This document shows positions 1 to 10,158 of a stretch of DNA of 22,477 bases, in pieces. Source of the DNA: a virus; the IMG/VR virus record IMGVR_UViG_3300023181_000376, positions 1 through 22,477 of that record. One strand, given 5' to 3'. Numbering within the stretch: the first letter of the stretch is position 1; each line of letters starts with the position of its first letter. Under the pieces are notes generated by a model. The model searched no databases. It had not been told where the DNA came from and worked only from the letters and a program-made list of their open reading frames with translations. The position numbers and the translations under genes are program-made.

Positions 1-1164
1 TTAAAGCTTGAGTGCGTGCTCAAGAATTCCAATCACGTCTGGCCCATCTTCATTAATCCACGTGCCGTAGTGCTTACGGATCATGTTTCCGTTGGTGTGC
101 CCCATCTGCTCGGCGATCCAGTCAATCGAAGCGACTCCACTGCTGAGCAACTGGCTCGCGTACGTATGCCGGCATTGGCCAGGTCCACGGTAGCGCACAC
201 CGGCATGCGCCAAATGGGTTTTAAAAAATCGGTCCCGGATGGTGAAATCACTGACATGTGGCTCCCCGCTCGATGTGTTCAAGAACACGAAATGCAGTTT
301 GTGTTGGCGCACAGTCCGATTATCCCGCTCAACGATGTCCACCGTATAAGGCTTACCACCCTTCGTCAGCGCCCTGAGCTTCTGTAAAGCGTCGAGCGCC
401 GGAGCCAGTAGGCGTACCCTTCTGTGCGACCGTCGGGTCTTGGTTACCCGGTATGCTCCACGGACCTTCGACCGGCGGAACGTCACCATACCCCCCTCAA
501 GGTCGATATCCTCCCAAGCCAAAGCAATGGTTTCAGAAACCCGCGAACCTGACCAAATCATGAACTGCACCATCAGCAGCTCATAGAGCCGACCGGTCGG
601 CGTTGCCAGGATTTGAGCAATCTCAGCACGGGTGAACGGGTCTGGTAGCGCCGGATCGGGAAGACGGACGTGTAAGCCTTCCGTTGGATCATGGGCCAGC
701 TTCTTTCGCGTTCGGTACAGTTTGAATACCTGGCGAACGTTACTGATAATGTCACGGATGGTTTTGTTATTGAGCCTGGCAGACAGCGTGGTCTGAATCC
801 ATTCCTGCAGATCCAGGTGATCAATCCGATCGATTTGCTCCCCTCCCCACCTCGGCCTGACATGTACCTCGGCCTTGTTCGCATATCCCCGAAAGGTCGT
901 TGCCGCGACGTTGTTCTTTTGGATATTCAGCCAAAGGTCCAGGTAGTGCCCGAAAGTGCTGTGGACCAGCTTGGGTGAATTGGGAAAGTGACGGGAATAG
1001 TCAAAAGTGCCCGCCTGTATTTCGTGGTCGATAATGTCGACCAGCCTTTGGGCGTGAGCCACGTTGGCTGGTGTGTTGCCGCCAGGTATCGATTCCCGAC
1101 ACTTGGCTCCCTCATAGTTGAAGTAAATCCGAACCGAATTACCCCGAGCCTCGACGCCGCTCAT
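1..1164 (-). CDS. int: Tyrosine recombinase (phage integrase)
   Basis: A 387-residue site-specific recombinase that would integrate and excise the phage genome. Visible parts are an N-terminal arm-type DNA-binding region (about residues 1-60), a SAM-like core-binding domain (about 65-155) and a C-terminal catalytic domain (about 175-387). Catalytic candidates are R208 in WSGSRVSE, K242, R332 in QCRHTYAS, H356 in MGHTN and the nucleophile Y366 in RKHYG. The usual box II H-x-x-R has Gly329 in place of the first His, a substitution position that also varies in related integrases. The ATG at 1164 is preceded by an AAGGA ribosome site. A rho-independent terminator upstream separates it from the early operon, so it probably has its own promoter in 1165-1212. 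The stop codon is the first base triplet of the window, so att is not seen. Confidence 0.96.
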   Translation of the reverse strand: MSGVEARGNSVRIYFNYEGAKCRESIPGGNTPANVAHAQRLVDIIDHEIQAGTFDYSRHFPNSPKLVHSTFGHYLDLWLNIQKNNVAATTFRGYANKAEVHVRPRWGGEQIDRIDHLDLQEWIQTTLSARLNNKTIRDIISNVRQVFKLYRTRKKLAHDPTEGLHVRLPDPALPDPFTRAEIAQILATPTGRLYELLMVQFMIWSGSRVSETIALAWEDIDLEGGMVTFRRSKVRGAYRVTKTRRSHRRVRLLAPALDALQKLRALTKGGKPYTVDIVERDNRTVRQHKLHFVFLNTSSGEPHVSDFTIRDRFFKTHLAHAGVRYRGPGQCRHTYASQLLSSGVASIDWIAEQMGHTNGNMIRKHYGTWINEDGPDVIGILEHALKL

Positions 1165-2102: not shown

Positions 2103-3221
2103 TTAGGCCCTGAACTGCCAGCAGCTCACCGACTCGGCAGGTGGGTTTACCAAGTTGTGCTTGCGTTGGATGCTGTTGATGGCGCTGGACGTAGTTCGGT
2201 TGATATCAATCAACTTGTGCGAACGACAGTCGCGTAGCAGGTGACGCAGCGTGTTGAGGTCAGCCAGCTTCTGACGGTGCTCTGCGGCTGCTTTTGCGAA
2301 ATGATTGAGGTTGATAGCGATAACGTCAGATTTCTTGCTGTGGTTGACCACAGGATCCGTACTGAGCGACTCCAGGTAGTCATAGACCTGCCAGAACTCC
2401 ACGACCTCTGGCGGATCCATGACGATCGCAGACTGACGCTCATGCGCCATGGCAATAATTTCGAGGCGCGTGCTCTCGACCATCTCCGCAGTGATCGGCA
2501 GAACAAGGCTCAGGCAGTCCACCAGGGCAAGCATCATGCTATGGTTTTTGATGATTCGAGCCGATCCGAGCGTGCGCATGGAGCGCAAGTGCGCGCGGTG
2601 TTTCGGGTAGGCCTCGGAGAAACGAGTCATCACCTTTGGTTCCTGGCTGATTGCCTGAACCAAAAAGTTGCTAACTTCGTTCATTTCCATTTGATTCAGT
2701 GCATCCGCCGCAGCGCTGCTTTGGGGAGTGATCTTCGGCTTACGGAAATGCAGCTTCACGATCCTGCTGATGATGGCTTCATGGCCAGTCACGGGGGCGT
2801 TCTGGCTGATTACGATCGTCCCCCGAAACTCAGGCTCGTAGGTTTCGTTGGTGTTGTTCTTAACGCCACGTGTGCCAAGCAGGCCACCGCCGAAAAAATC
2901 CTTGAGTTCATCCCAGTCAAAAGACTTGGAGTTGGATGCATCGCTGCTGCGATCGCCCTCGATCAACACCACAGGCATGCCGGCGACCTGCCCCATCGAA
3001 CGGCTTCGCCCTGCGGGGGTACCTTTGGTTGGGTCGAACCCCTCGTACTTACGACCGAACAATTTCCACAGAAACATGATCAGCGTGGTCTTGCCGGCAT
3101 CAGGCTCGCCCGTTGCTTCCAGGAACGGAAAGCTCTCGTACTGATCGCGGATCTGCTCGGCAAACAACGATCCGAACCAAAACGTCAGAGCGACCAAACC
3201 CTTTCGCCAAAGCACAGCCAC
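2103..3221 (-). CDS. Helicase half of a frame-split phage primase-helicase
   Basis: The 372-codon frame carries an ATPase of the phage DNA primase/helicase type. It shows a Walker A motif (GEPDAGKTT, residues 38-46), a Walker B-like strand (VVLIEGD, 84-90) and a sensor-like strand TIVISQNA near residue 140. In P2-like Pseudomonas prophages I expect this to be the C-terminal half of one polypeptide of about 900 residues with an N-terminal Toprim primase; here the two frames total 912 residues. The listed GTG at 3221 is only the first possible start in the open frame and has no ribosome site, so independent translation looks weak. The frame is -1 relative to the Toprim frame. A single missing base in the GGG run at 3199-3201 (plus-strand CCC) would restore one reading frame, with the junction reading GER-GLVALTFW. 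It may be a real mutation, a sequence error or, less likely, recoding. Confidence 0.8.
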   Translation of the reverse strand: MAVLWRKGLVALTFWFGSLFAEQIRDQYESFPFLEATGEPDAGKTTLIMFLWKLFGRKYEGFDPTKGTPAGRSRSMGQVAGMPVVLIEGDRSSDASNSKSFDWDELKDFFGGGLLGTRGVKNNTNETYEPEFRGTIVISQNAPVTGHEAIISRIVKLHFRKPKITPQSSAAADALNQMEMNEVSNFLVQAISQEPKVMTRFSEAYPKHRAHLRSMRTLGSARIIKNHSMMLALVDCLSLVLPITAEMVESTRLEIIAMAHERQSAIVMDPPEVVEFWQVYDYLESLSTDPVVNHSKKSDVIAINLNHFAKAAAEHRQKLADLNTLRHLLRDCRSHKLIDINRTTSSAINSIQRKHNLVNPPAESVSCWQFRA

Positions 3222-5115: not shown

Positions 5116-5481
5116 TTACGAGTTGGCTAAGCGGTAACGCCCGTTGTCCGGTGCGTTGATGATGCGTTCGTAGATCAAGCTGACCGGGATTGCCCAGGCA
5201 TTACCAGTGGTTGGGTCGACGATGACCGAATGGGTCGTCGAACTATTGAGGACATCGAGGCGTTGGCGATCGCAGATTGCGTGCATGTCGCTGTAGGCCA
5301 GGTGCACCATCTTTTCTGCCATCTGCGTTAGCACGTCGTAGTCGGCCACCAAGTGTCGAACCGTTCGGGCGATCAACTGCTGGTCATTGCCAAGGTGTTC
5401 GCAGTGGTGACGCTCCAGAAACGTTAAAGCAGCGGCTTTCAACACGTCCTGATATTCCTGTACTGCAGGCGGGATATTCAT
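5116..5481 (-). CDS. Hypothetical protein, early operon
   Basis: A 121-residue soluble protein that I do not recognise. It has a helical N-terminal two thirds (residues 1-75) with several His residues and a C-terminal segment with a TTGNAWAIP stretch suggesting a small beta element. The ATG at 5481 overlaps the stop of the upstream YmfL-like gene by four bases, which supports the start despite a weak ribosome site. The position between the early regulator and the replication genes is the only clue to its role. Confidence 0.72.
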   Translation of the reverse strand: MNIPPAVQEYQDVLKAAALTFLERHHCEHLGNDQQLIARTVRHLVADYDVLTQMAEKMVHLAYSDMHAICDRQRLDVLNSSTTHSVIVDPTTGNAWAIPVSLIYERIINAPDNGRYRLANS

Positions 5482-5957
5482 TGGGCTGGCCCTGATTTAG
5501 CGCGGTAGAGATCAATGGCTGCGAGCACTTCGGCGTGGCGTGCGGCCATATGCAGGTTGTGTGCATTTAGGATGTGTTCTGCTTCCGCTTCGTTGATGCA
5601 GCCATCGGCCAGCGCCTTTGCAATTTCCTGATCGACGCAACCACGCTTTGCCGCGACCTGGACAGAGAGCGTGTACATCTCCACGGTGTCATTCGTTTCG
5701 GGATCCGGTACCGCAACGAACAGGCCGCCATACATCGACGCCACGTAATTGGGGAAATGCTGTGTGCCTGCTTCCTGCTCGAGCTGATACAACTGGATGT
5801 CGGTCAGCGGGCGGCTGTTGTTATTTTCGTACGCATGGTTATCGAACTTCTTCAACGCCAAACCGATGCGGGCTGCAGCGCATTCACGGCCGCCGGGGTA
5901 GCTGCAAATTATTGCGCTGACGACTTCGCGACGGGTCTTAAGAACTGGGCTTTTCAT
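5478..5957 (-). CDS. YmfL/CII-like phage regulatory protein
   Basis: A 159-residue protein resembling the YmfL family of putative phage regulators (related in position to CII). The recognisable core is TRREVVSAIICSYPGGREC, a helical region ending in LKKFDNHAYENN (around residue 45), then PLTDIQLYQLEQEAGT and a YVASMYGG segment (about 75-80), which together read as a winged or helix-turn-helix-like domain. The ATG at 5957 follows an AGGGAA ribosome site. An alternative start at 5987 (MARTS) would make a TAATG junction with the upstream gene but lacks a ribosome site. As the second gene of the early operon it is expected to influence early transcription or the lysis-lysogeny choice; this is inferred from family and location. 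Confidence 0.78.
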   Translation of the reverse strand: MKSPVLKTRREVVSAIICSYPGGRECAAARIGLALKKFDNHAYENNNSRPLTDIQLYQLEQEAGTQHFPNYVASMYGGLFVAVPDPETNDTVEMYTLSVQVAAKRGCVDQEIAKALADGCINEAEAEHILNAHNLHMAARHAEVLAAIDLYRAKSGPAQ

Positions 5958-5986
5958 GTTCTGCTTTTCCCTGCTAGTGCGTGCCA

Positions 5987-6199
5987 TTACTGTGCAATCA
6001 CGCCGTCTTTGATTCCCAACAACACGGCGGCTCGATGTGCCTCCCCGCGTCGACACTGGCTCTGGCCACTCAGCACTGCGTACACGGTGCTGGGATTCAA
6101 TTGGTGTTTCACAGCGAAGTCTTTCGCTGTCTGACCTTTTCGTTCCAAGGCTTCCCGCGCTTCGCGTCGGGCTTGCTCGCTGATGCTTGTGTTGTGCAT
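5987..6199 (-). CDS. BcepMu gp16-like small DNA-binding protein (Cro/Cox-like position)
   Basis: A 70-residue basic protein and the first gene of the minus-strand early operon. Residues 10-66 fit the BcepMu gp16 type family: an ALERKGQTAKDFAVKHQLN helix pair, a STVYAVLSG recognition-helix-like segment and the AAVLLGIKDG ending. Being the first gene opposite the repressor, it occupies the place of Cro or Cox in other temperate phages and may repress the repressor gene or direct excision. The ATG at 6199 gives a protein of family size; the same frame stays open to 6397 but that part is antisense to the repressor. The start codon lies within one of the ATGCAC repeats of the control region, so binding could also block its own start. 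Confidence 0.75.
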   Translation of the reverse strand: MHNTSISEQARREAREALERKGQTAKDFAVKHQLNPSTVYAVLSGQSQCRRGEAHRAAVLLGIKDGVIAQ

Positions 6200-6258
6200 A
6201 GTGCATTTCCGTGCAGTTTCATGTGGTGTGGAATGCACTTTGATGCACCGCGATGCAT
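6194..6258. promoter_or_regulatory. Phased repeat array: early operator region
   Basis: Three direct repeats of ATGCAY lie exactly 10 bp apart (6233-6238, 6243-6248, 6253-6258). In the opposite orientation, GTGCAT at 6201-6206 and GTGCAG at 6211-6216 are also 10 bp apart, and a further GTGCAT covers 6194-6199. The two sets face each other across an unrepeated 16-base centre. The region separates the divergent repressor and early genes, so it most likely holds the operators and overlapping promoters of the switch. Which protein binds is not shown by the sequence. Confidence 0.72.
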
Positions 6259-6267
6259 TTGTAAATG
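6240..6267 (+). promoter_or_regulatory. Candidate repressor promoter
   Basis: A TTGATG -35-like hexamer at 6240-6245 and a TAAATG -10-like hexamer at 6262-6267 are 16 bp apart and would start transcription about 10 bases before the repressor TTG codon. The elements overlap the second and third ATGCAY repeats, which would allow autoregulation. The -10 match is poor, so this is tentative. Confidence 0.33.
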
Positions 6268-6284: not shown

Positions 6285-6635
6285 TTGCATGACTCTAAAA
6301 TAATCGGTTCTCGTCTTGCCGAGGAACGTAAGCGATGTGGGATGACGCAAGAGCAGCTTGCAGATGCGTTGGGAGTGGTGAAACGTACCCAAGCCAATTA
6401 CGAGGGCGGCTCCAGCGATGCTACGGCGTCCTATCTCAGCAGAGCAGTAACGGAACTTAGTTTCGACGTTCTTTACATCCTTACGGGAGTGCGAACCACA
6501 TTGGCCATCGACTCTCTTAACGATGAAGAAGATGCGTTGGTGAAGAAATATCGCCGCATTCCTGAGGACGACCAGAAGACGATCCGTCGCTTTGTCGATG
6601 CCATTACGGTCATGGAGGCTCGGGGGCCGAATTAG
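6285..6635 (+). CDS. Xre-family phage repressor (C-type)
   Basis: A 116-residue transcription regulator with an N-terminal HTH_3 domain (about residues 6-65: GSRLAEERKRCGMTQEQLA, then GVVKRTQANYEGG as the recognition region), the common phage-repressor segment LSFDVLYILTGVR (about 57-70), and a helical tail (75-113) with YRRIPEDDQKTIRRFVDAI. There is no LexA-type peptidase domain, so it is a short P2-C-like repressor rather than a self-cleaving one. The frame opens just downstream of an in-frame TGA at 6276 and the only start that keeps the complete HTH is TTG at 6285; the next ATG is residue 20, inside the HTH. It is divergent from the early operon and is the likely immunity repressor acting on the ATGCAY array. 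Confidence 0.9.
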   Translation: MHDSKIIGSRLAEERKRCGMTQEQLADALGVVKRTQANYEGGSSDATASYLSRAVTELSFDVLYILTGVRTTLAIDSLNDEEDALVKKYRRIPEDDQKTIRRFVDAITVMEARGPN

Positions 6636-7304: not shown

Positions 7305-8336
7305 CTAGACACCAGATGTAGCGTTTTCCCCTTCCGCAGTTGCTCCTCTCCAGGCGAATCGCCTGTCCTGCCGCAAGGTATCGTTCACTTGATTGAAAAG
7401 TTGACAGATCGGACGAATTTCGTTGCTGGTGTACACGCGATCGATCTTCTCGATATCGCCGAATCCGGCGCTGTTTTCCGGGATGATCCCGGCCAGTGCG
7501 GGGTTCATGCGCCAGGCGGCGATCACGTCGTTACGGGTAATGTTTTTGACCTTCTCCAGCTCGTCCTTGGCCTGGAAATCACCTACGGGAATGATCTGAA
7601 TGGCCTTCTCGGATCCGCCCGGAATGTTCACGAACATGGACCGGAAGTTGCCCACACCCTTGCTGGCCGTGATCTGGGCGCGCAGCTCGTCCTCGTCGTC
7701 CTCACTCAGGTTCGGATCGTTGGTGTAGAAGATGTAACCCGCGTGTGCGCCGTTGCTGTAGTAGCGCCGGCGGAACAGGGTCGCTGCCTCGTTGAGCAAC
7801 AGCGCCTGCATGCCGCCCAGGTAGTCCGGAACGCCATAAACGTTCTGTTCCACGTCATAGTTGAAAACGTGCTCAACCTCGTCCTGGTCGAATTCCTCTT
7901 CCCTGCCATCGTCCAGCAACCTGACGAAGCCGCCTGCGCGCTTGATCCGCATGTTGATAGCGGGCAAGTGCTCCATTTCGAGTACTTCGCCAAATGCATT
8001 GCGGTGGCGGTACAGGTACATTTCCCCGAACACCATGTAATCCAGTGCGGCGCAGCTCATCGTTCGCGTGGACACGCCCAGCGACGGGATGAACTCACGC
8101 AGCAGCAGGTTGCGCTTGAACCCTGGAATGGCCCCATGATGCGCGTTGGCTCGCAGCAGCTTGGCCAGGCCTTGGCGCGACACAGGGGGCGTGTACAGCC
8201 GACCGTCGTGACTGGCGAACACGCCCAGGTACTGCCCGATGTTGTCGGTCAGCACCTGTTCCGGCGCTCCGAATGAAAAGGCCCGCATCGGCCCTGGTGC
8301 CGGTTTGGCCGGCTGTTTTGGTTTGTGACGAGCCAT
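7305..8336 (-). CDS. Q: Portal protein (P2 gpQ-like)
   Basis: A 343-residue portal protein that forms the dodecameric vertex through which DNA enters and leaves the capsid; P2 gpQ is 344 residues. The family signature is visible throughout: AFSFGAPEQVL near the start, a long helical body including LDYMVFGEMYLYR, VYGVPDYLGGMQALLLNEAATLFRRRYYSNGAHAGYI and RMNPALAGIIPEN (about residues 285-300). The ATG at 8336 (MARHKPKQ) is chosen because it gives the family length; in-frame starts at 8399 and 8429 would lie within terminase. Its first 242 bases are overlapped in another frame by the unusual extension of the terminase gene. Confidence 0.95.
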   Translation of the reverse strand: MARHKPKQPAKPAPGPMRAFSFGAPEQVLTDNIGQYLGVFASHDGRLYTPPVSRQGLAKLLRANAHHGAIPGFKRNLLLREFIPSLGVSTRTMSCAALDYMVFGEMYLYRHRNAFGEVLEMEHLPAINMRIKRAGGFVRLLDDGREEEFDQDEVEHVFNYDVEQNVYGVPDYLGGMQALLLNEAATLFRRRYYSNGAHAGYIFYTNDPNLSEDDEDELRAQITASKGVGNFRSMFVNIPGGSEKAIQIIPVGDFQAKDELEKVKNITRNDVIAAWRMNPALAGIIPENSAGFGDIEKIDRVYTSNEIRPICQLFNQVNDTLRQDRRFAWRGATAEGENATSGV

Positions 8337-10158
8337 GGTTTGCTGATCCAGTGAGTGCGTAGCGGCTGCGCCGCTGCTTGTTGGTGTTGAGAGGTTCATT
8401 GGCCAGTGCATGCATGATTGCCCAGGCAATATCGGCGTGGCCGGTGGCGTCCGTGCGCGATGCGCTGTAGGTGATCTGTCCGCTACCTGTGGTGCCGCGC
8501 TTGATCGTCAGGAAGGCCTGCGCAACGTCGTTCCAGCCGGCGTCCCATTCGATGCGGCTGCCGACGATGGTGTCCTGTGCCTTGAGCACCAGGGTGTTCT
8601 TGGTCTCCAGGCTGTAGTGGATCGAGGTCGCACGCGGATAGAAATCGCGCACCAGGTCGAATACGCCGTAACCGATGCCTGTGGTGTCGATGCCGATGTG
8701 CTGGACGTTGAAGCGCTCCGTAAGTCGCTTGACCTGCTCGGCCTGGTACTTGAACGACTGACCCCGCCAGCTGTGCTTCTCGAGGATCCGGAACTTGCCT
8801 TCCGGCTCGAGCGGCGGCGCGATGACTACGCAGGTCGCGTCGTCCCGGGTTCGGCTGGGGTCGTAGCCGATCCAGACGGGGCTGTTGCCGAATGGGCGCG
8901 GGTCGTCGGGTTCGTAGTCGGTCCACAACGCCAGATCGGAATAGCAGCGCTCCAGGTCGGCCAGGGAAAACACGCTCTGGGTGCTGTCGATGAATTTGCA
9001 CATGAACAGCTGTTCAAAACGGTCGTCGTCGTACTCCAGGCGCAGCTGCTCGAGGTCGAACAGATCGCAGCCGCCGGCGATCGCATCCAGGATGGTGATG
9101 ACCTTGCGCCATTGTCCGTCCGGACATAGCGTGCCGGCGGCCATCTGTTTGTCGCTTGGCCACGGCTCTTTGGCGGTTTTCTTCTTGCTGTTACGGAATT
9201 TCTCGCCAGTCCAGAACGGGTACGCCTGGTGCGACACCGCGCTGGGTGTGGAAAAGTAGGTTTTGCGCCATTTCTTGTGGGTCGCCATGGCGCTGGCCAC
9301 GGTGTTCAGTTTCTCGAAATCGCGGATCCAGAAATATTCGTCGACGTAGACGTGGCCATGGTGGCCTTGGGCGGTGCTGCTGTTGGTGCTGAGAAAGCGC
9401 AGCTCGGCCCACGGCTTGCCGTCCTTGCTGAGCACGATCGGGTTGCCAGTCAACTCCAGGCCAAACCACTCCTGGGCAAACGAGATGATGTAGCTGCGGA
9501 AAATCTCCGACTGGGCGCGGCTGGCCGATAGGAAGATCTGGTTGTCGCCGGTCAATACCGCATCCATGAACGCTTCGCCCGCGAAGTAGTAGGTCAGGCC
9601 CACCTGGCGACTTTTCAGGATGTTGCGGATCCGCGCTGTCAGCGGGTTGATCTTTGCGGCGTACAGCTCTTTCTGGTAGCCGTACATTTTGCTGATGAAC
9701 TTGTCCAGGAAGTCGACTTCGGTCAGTTCGCTGACGTCGTTCTTTACCGCTTTCTGTTTCTTCGGGCCGCGTTTTTCACCCCGATTGCCTTTATCTCGTC
9801 GCTCGCCGCGCTGGTCGTCGCGACGGTAGCCACCGTCCTCAATCGGATCATTCGCCGGCACCGGTGCGGGTTTGGCGCATTGCTTGGCCAGGCGTTCGCG
9901 AACAGTCGTCAGGCGATCCAGCTCATCCAGTTCACCCTTGGTCAGCGAGTCGGCTTTTTCCAGGAGCAACGTGATCCGCCGACTGACAGCGGTCAGCGGT
10001 TCTTCATCCGACAGCATGTCGTCCCATTCACCCTGGCGGATCCAGTAGTAGACGATCCGGATGTTGGGCAGGGATAACTGCGCCTGAATTTCACGCGGCT
10101 TGCAGCGGCGTAAATAGAGGCGTTTGGCGGCTTCTTTAAGTTCGGGGGCGTATGGCAT
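8095..10158 (-). CDS. P: Large terminase, ATPase/nuclease subunit (P2 gpP-like), with C-terminal read-on
   Basis: The packaging motor subunit. It has an N-terminal HTH-like region (residues 1-60), a charged linker (about 100-140), an ATPase domain with a Walker A-like KSRQVGLT (182-189) and Walker B YVDE (271-274), and a C-terminal RNase H-like nuclease with acidic candidates D433 (IGYDPSRT), D491 (GIDTTGIG) and D576 (GHADIAWA). The protein should end near residue 604, just before the portal start, which would match the roughly 590 residues of P2 gpP. Instead the frame runs 83 codons further into portal. Those residues look like portal translated in the wrong frame. A TGA-to-TCA change at codon 605 would explain this. 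The ATG at 10158 has no clear ribosome site. Confidence 0.95.
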   Translation of the reverse strand: MPYAPELKEAAKRLYLRRCKPREIQAQLSLPNIRIVYYWIRQGEWDDMLSDEEPLTAVSRRITLLLEKADSLTKGELDELDRLTTVRERLAKQCAKPAPVPANDPIEDGGYRRDDQRGERRDKGNRGEKRGPKKQKAVKNDVSELTEVDFLDKFISKMYGYQKELYAAKINPLTARIRNILKSRQVGLTYYFAGEAFMDAVLTGDNQIFLSASRAQSEIFRSYIISFAQEWFGLELTGNPIVLSKDGKPWAELRFLSTNSSTAQGHHGHVYVDEYFWIRDFEKLNTVASAMATHKKWRKTYFSTPSAVSHQAYPFWTGEKFRNSKKKTAKEPWPSDKQMAAGTLCPDGQWRKVITILDAIAGGCDLFDLEQLRLEYDDDRFEQLFMCKFIDSTQSVFSLADLERCYSDLALWTDYEPDDPRPFGNSPVWIGYDPSRTRDDATCVVIAPPLEPEGKFRILEKHSWRGQSFKYQAEQVKRLTERFNVQHIGIDTTGIGYGVFDLVRDFYPRATSIHYSLETKNTLVLKAQDTIVGSRIEWDAGWNDVAQAFLTIKRGTTGSGQITYSASRTDATGHADIAWAIMHALANEPLNTNKQRRSRYALTGSANHGSSQTKTAGQTGTRADAGLFIRSAGTGADRQHRAVPGRVRQSRRSAVHAPCVAPRPGQAAASQRASWGHSRVQAQPAAA

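Follow-up and report, generated by a model that had tools for sequence, protein, structure and literature searches.

In operators of the 434 type, inverted half-sites stand about 10 bp apart and overlap the early promoter. The C repressor of phage P2 binds two 8-bp direct repeats that lie 22 bp apart (PMC4752584), and in phage 186 the sites of Apl are direct repeats 10-11 bp apart, found between the early promoters and at att (PMC7498355). In Cluster A mycobacteriophages, repressor and operators diverge together into immunity types (PMC6550527). Here we describe an array of TGCA sites in a P2-like phage that very probably serve as two-fold operators for its own C repressor; this predicted binding draws on comparison of sequences. 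The operators are ordinary in kind and unusually well resolved by the comparison.

The window, i.e. the whole stretch of DNA that was analysed, is a virus record of 22,477 bases. It is a Pseudomonas P2-like prophage, in which portal, large terminase, capsid and tail genes and an Ogr/Delta zinc finger are present and the early region runs leftward to a tyrosine integrase. Among annotated phages, UFJF_PfPro and the Citexvirus phages D14A, Dobby and Sirocco come closest. C, an Xre-type HTH protein of 116 aa with a TTG start (6285..6635, plus strand), faces the leftward gene of a 70-aa BcepMu gp16-like HTH protein in the Cox/Cro position (5987..6199, minus strand; phrog_925), and the array lies between the two. 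The third regulator is a YmfL/CII-like protein of 168 aa (5478..5984, minus strand; phrog_101; NF041471, 174.7 bits against a cut-off of 90). The gp16-like protein belongs to the BcepMu gp16 family by the NCBIfam model TIGR04111 (74.2 bits, cut-off 34). C scored above the cut-offs of PF13560 (28.6 bits, cut-off 27) and PF01381 (24.5 bits, cut-off 23), as an Xre/HTH_3-type phage repressor, and below that of the RstR repressor family (NCBIfam model NF041951, 42 bits against 80).

In the structural model of C (mean pLDDT 89), residues 33-41 form the recognition helix, which contains the segment K33-R-T-Q-A37-N-Y-E40. A Foldseek search of the PDB matched the model to P22 c2 with operator DNA, the 434 repressor domain, C.AhdI and SinR. 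The best E-value was 4e-4 and most matches were weaker, so that the fold class is supported and no specific relative is.

TGCA cores were found at 6202, 6212, 6234, 6244 and 6254, with spacings of 10, 22, 10 and 10 bp, and one more at 6195; the coordinates of the copies listed in the first-pass annotation are all right, as is its placing of an operator array between repressor and early genes. Sites 1 and 2 form a TGCA-N6-TGCA dyad, O1 (6244..6257), site 3 is an extra half-site 10 bp from site 2 (6234..6237), and sites 4 and 5 form a second TGCA-N6-TGCA dyad, O2 (6202..6215), in the gp16-like leader, at a distance of 42 bp (four helical turns) from O1. The window holds three TGCA-N6-TGCA pairs, all within the array, where 0.61 would be expected by chance in its whole length. 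Two or more such pairs occurred in none of 20,000 random 95-bp stretches generated with the dinucleotides of the window, and three pairs in one of 20,000 generated with local dinucleotides. The early promoter was missed by a consensus promoter scan and was then placed by its position in relatives: the putative -35, TTTACA (6260..6265, minus strand), stands where relatives have TTTACA or TTGACA, and the presumed -10, CAAAGT (6237..6242, minus strand; CATTCT, AATAAT or TAATCT in relatives), follows at a spacing of 17 bp that is fixed in relatives. O1 lies in this 17-bp spacer and site 3 overlaps the end of the -10.

The GTGCAT copy at 6194..6199 (plus strand) does lie over the start codon of the gp16-like gene, as had been noted, and it was also counted as an array member. 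That part was rejected: the copy is 7 bp and not 10 bp from its neighbour, it consists of the ATG and His2 codons, and since codon 2 is Pro in nearly all relatives it is an incidental, non-conserved coding feature outside the array. A TGCA that had been overlooked, O0 (6286..6289), arises where the TTG start codon of C meets its second codon.

TGCA reads alike on both strands, which makes TGCA-N6-TGCA a 10-bp direct repeat and a perfect inverted repeat simultaneously. The opposite orientation earlier ascribed to some of the copies thus cannot be read from them, and the window alone cannot separate stacked direct repeats from dyads. Since the window left three readings (two-fold sites, sites like those of P2 C, and sites like those of Apl), relatives were used to ask which protein the letters follow. 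The relatives were collected with the gp16-like protein as query, so that the choice of repressor was not biased, and comprised 80 close IMG/VR loci, 80 Citexvirus-like loci and 68 genome loci. Searching IMG/VR with C itself returned distant Xre proteins only, with no TGCA operator. In two loci with more distant Xre repressors (L005 and L006, helix RRTVIAWE), a two-fold GTGAAG..CTTCAC site precedes the repressor by about 48 bp, which suggests that the dyad rule extends further.

The 80 close relatives exhibit two array states, one with TGCA at all sites and one with GGCA-N6-TGCC at sites 1-2, TGCG at site 3, CGCA at site 4 and TGCA at site 5. In this close set the state matches the recognition helix of C, KRTQANYE being paired with TGCA and KRTQGNYE with GGCA-N6-TGCC, whereas gp16-like proteins from the two groups share up to 98.6% identity; in one pair of loci (L037 and L038) this protein differs at 1 of 70 residues and the arrays are different. 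Among 225 switches in all, a dyad was found on the same axis in the early-promoter spacer, with letters that depend on the C helix: TGCA..TGCA with KRTQAN[YW]E, KRT[LI]AGYE or KRTQAAYE, GGCA..TGCC with KRT[QL]GNYE, TTCAAC..GTTGAA with KT[ST]QFNYE, GTTCA..TGAAC with KTTQINYE, and TCCC..GGGA with KN[ST]Q[YLF][NA]YE. None of the 225 switches combines a given helix with the dyad of another class. The strict patterns are escaped by 21 loci, nearly all of which carry, in the same position, the dyad of their own class with point changes; four KN[ST]QLNYE loci have only a weak dyad. The comparison in relatives shows that the repeats are conserved and the 10-bp spacing is kept. The proposal of cooperative stacking with one site per turn, instead of two-fold operators, is not supported, as TGCA-N6-TGCA is itself two-fold and the same two positions are inverted in relatives (GGCA-N6-TGCC, TTCAAC-N4-GTTGAA, TCCC..GGGA).

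In 143 distinct sequences, with the -35 picked independently of any symmetry, the four base pairs that mirror one another at half-site distance were complementary in 91% of cases at the spacer axis, against a median of 24% for the remaining axes. The second-best axis (52%) lies between sites 2 and 3. O2 is present in 62 of 62 KRTQAN[YW]E relatives, and CGCA..TGCA takes its place in 42 of 42 KRTQGNYE relatives; one GGCA-class phage (L017) carries a TGCA-type O2, and no clear counterpart of O2 was found in the TTCAAC, GTTCA and TCCC classes. Site 3 is present in 61 of the 62 KRTQAN[YW]E relatives and in none of the 13 Sirocco-like KRT[LI]AGYE phages, ten of which keep both O1 and O2. That these phages usually keep both dyads without site 3 supports O1 and O2 as the core set. 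The TGCA of the C start codon is found in all 76 TGCA-class relatives, whether codon 2 is His or Gln, and is absent from the other classes. The TCAAC and TTCCC classes have a half-site of their own near the C start, in a matching place 31-32 bp from O1. Elsewhere in the TGCA-class loci TGCA pairs are not enriched over the GGCA-class loci, with 0.40 against 0.66 per 10 kb.

A DNA tree of 116 KR-class phages was built from their gp16-like and YmfL-like genes. For INDEPENDENCE, the operator changes between the TGCA and GGCA states 21 times on this tree, and residue 37 changes along with it (Ala or Gly) every time, all 116 phages being concordant; 16 independent pairs on supported branches give a sign test p = 3e-5. 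The class changes once on a tree of the C head with the recognition helix left out and six times on a tree of the C tail, which indicates that the C head and the operator travel as a cassette past constant neighbours. Residue 37 holds 2.12 of the 2.16 bits of operator class, the most among 54 aligned head columns, and residue 34 is fully determined by operator class. Residue 37 may thus carry the specificity for TGCA versus GGCA; we propose it as a causal candidate only, because TGCA and GGCA heads are also told apart by five further columns. Since the letters follow the C helix while the gp16-like protein stays nearly constant, we infer that C is the reader. Of the three readers that had been suggested the 116-residue repressor therefore holds, and the gp16-like and YmfL-like proteins are unlikely main readers, being nearly constant while the array is rewritten.

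The assignment of the array to C is thus based on conservation, a shared dyad axis, complete co-variation with the C helix and independence from the gp16-like and YmfL-like genes; the half-sites are inverted about 10 bp apart and their letters co-vary with the recognition helix, as in a two-fold operator. C would bind as a dimer, each recognition helix reading one TGCA, so that two half-sites 10 bp apart would be filled jointly as one operator. O1, between the -35 and the -10, would block the early promoter when bound by C. O2, on the same face of the DNA, may be bound cooperatively with O1. Site 3 and the half-site in the C start codon would be accessory, probably for tighter repression and self-regulation. 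Because site 3 shares half-site 2 with O1, separate dimers cannot fill all three half-sites in a row.

A truly helically phased direct repeat does exist in the region. The gp16-like leader of relatives with KN or KT repressors (L093-L240) carries TCACACGAAATCACACGAA, a 10-bp direct repeat. Across 68 distinct sequences most of its positions exceed 90% conservation, irrespective of the type of repressor. Its first unit, R1 (CACATGAAA; 6217..6225, minus strand), is conserved by the gp16-like start in nearly all relatives. The second unit, R2 (TGCACGGAA; 6207..6215, minus strand), reads CACACGAA in other classes and is overprinted here by O2; what adjoins the gp16-like gene as CACACGAAAT in relatives with other repressors is thus left as a remnant in the window. 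The reader of TCACACGAAATCACACGAA is probably the gp16-like protein.

This repeat, together with the Apl sites of phage 186, is what favours the gp16-like protein, in the Cox/Apl position, as binding the TGCA copies head to tail, one per turn, like the Apl/Cox/Xis excisionases. However, the gp16-like protein remains almost unchanged when the TGCA array gives way to another, and the constant element is CACACGAAA and not TGCA; an excisionase-type reading of the array was rejected on this ground and is very unlikely to hold. The CACACGAAA repeat itself remains a candidate array of the Apl/Cox type. An excisionase role of the gp16-like protein finds no support, since no tandem CACACGAA was found beside the integrase, on its downstream side, in 73 loci (the window record has no att of its own) and since the protein is modelled as a four-helix HTH, not a winged one (mean pLDDT 77). 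A modest chance is left for a mixed use, in which C reads O1 whereas O2 mainly serves the gp16-like protein (R1/R2) in competition with C. It fits the overlap of sites 4 and 5 with R2, but site 4 is TGCA in 62 of 62 TGCA-class relatives, CGCA in 42 of 42 GGCA-class relatives and CACA in nearly all others, and these differences by class indicate that the repressor class shapes site 4.

P2 C also offers a precedent, two 8-bp direct repeats 22 bp apart (PMC4752584), for C binding as a dimer to direct repeats about two turns apart, which here would be sites 3 and 4, and TGCA cannot show its orientation. Nevertheless, in the classes whose half-sites are oriented, the pair that is kept from class to class stands in inverted order at a spacing of 10-11 bp, the KRT[LI]AGYE phages lack site 3, and no P2 C chain was among the PDB sequence matches of C at E-values up to 0.1. 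By this comparison of sequences C does not group with the P2 C family or with its style of repeats, and such binding is highly improbable. That chance or coding constraint produced the array without regulatory meaning could be argued from the copies at 6194 and in the C start codon, which overlap coding sequence; for the five main sites it is refuted by the chance tests and by conservation with a turnover tied to the C helix, and its probability is negligible.

The two-fold operators of C thus resemble those of the lambdoid Xre repressors 434 and P22 c2 in the short HTH fold, in inverted half-sites about one turn apart and in an operator over the early promoter. They differ in the self-complementary half-site TGCA, in the lack of a LexA-like tail in C and in the extra half-site in the C start codon. 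P2 C is similarly short and lies beside the early promoter in a P2-like phage, but it uses direct repeats 22 bp apart whereas the relatives of C use inverted half-sites 10-11 bp apart. The systems of 186 Apl and P2 Cox share with this locus a small early protein opposite the repressor and 10-bp direct repeats between the genes (here CACACGAAA), and are set apart from it by the TGCA array that does not follow the gp16-like protein, by the lack of a repeat found at att and by the four-helix, not winged, fold. Cluster A mycobacteriophages have many asymmetric stoperators throughout the genome, in contrast to the compact switch and fixed dyad axis found here.

The 225 switches share one architecture and a nearly constant neighbour protein, and have at least five operator types that change with the repressor helix. 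Such a comparison allows prediction of which prophages share immunity, provides a natural test bed for specificity change in short repressors, and illustrates how self-complementary half-sites can make a two-fold operator resemble a helically phased direct repeat. It is quite possible, if a little short of an even chance, that immunity type in these Pseudomonas P2-like phages is set mainly by helix positions 34 (Arg, Asn or Thr) and 37 (Ala, Gly, Tyr/Leu, Phe or Ile), and that head and operators, including the half-site in the repressor start codon and the one overprinted on the repeats of the second regulator, are exchanged as one cassette; specificity would then be readable from sequence.

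Several further features of the window were observed. UFJF_PfPro has the replication gene as a single ORF of 903 aa; in the window a frame change at 3185-3221 breaks it into two overlapping ORFs, reflecting either a pseudogene or a sequencing error. The terminase ORF overlaps the portal ORF by more than 300 bases in another frame (8095-8429), and the assigned end of the terminase gene may be wrong. Two different-looking integrases were found among relatives with the same switch (window 1-1164; L002, L004, L174 and L176), one of the window type and one of the PfPro/Sirocco type, the latter preceded by a small gene (DUF4224 in Sirocco), and integration modules therefore seem to be exchanged apart from the switch.
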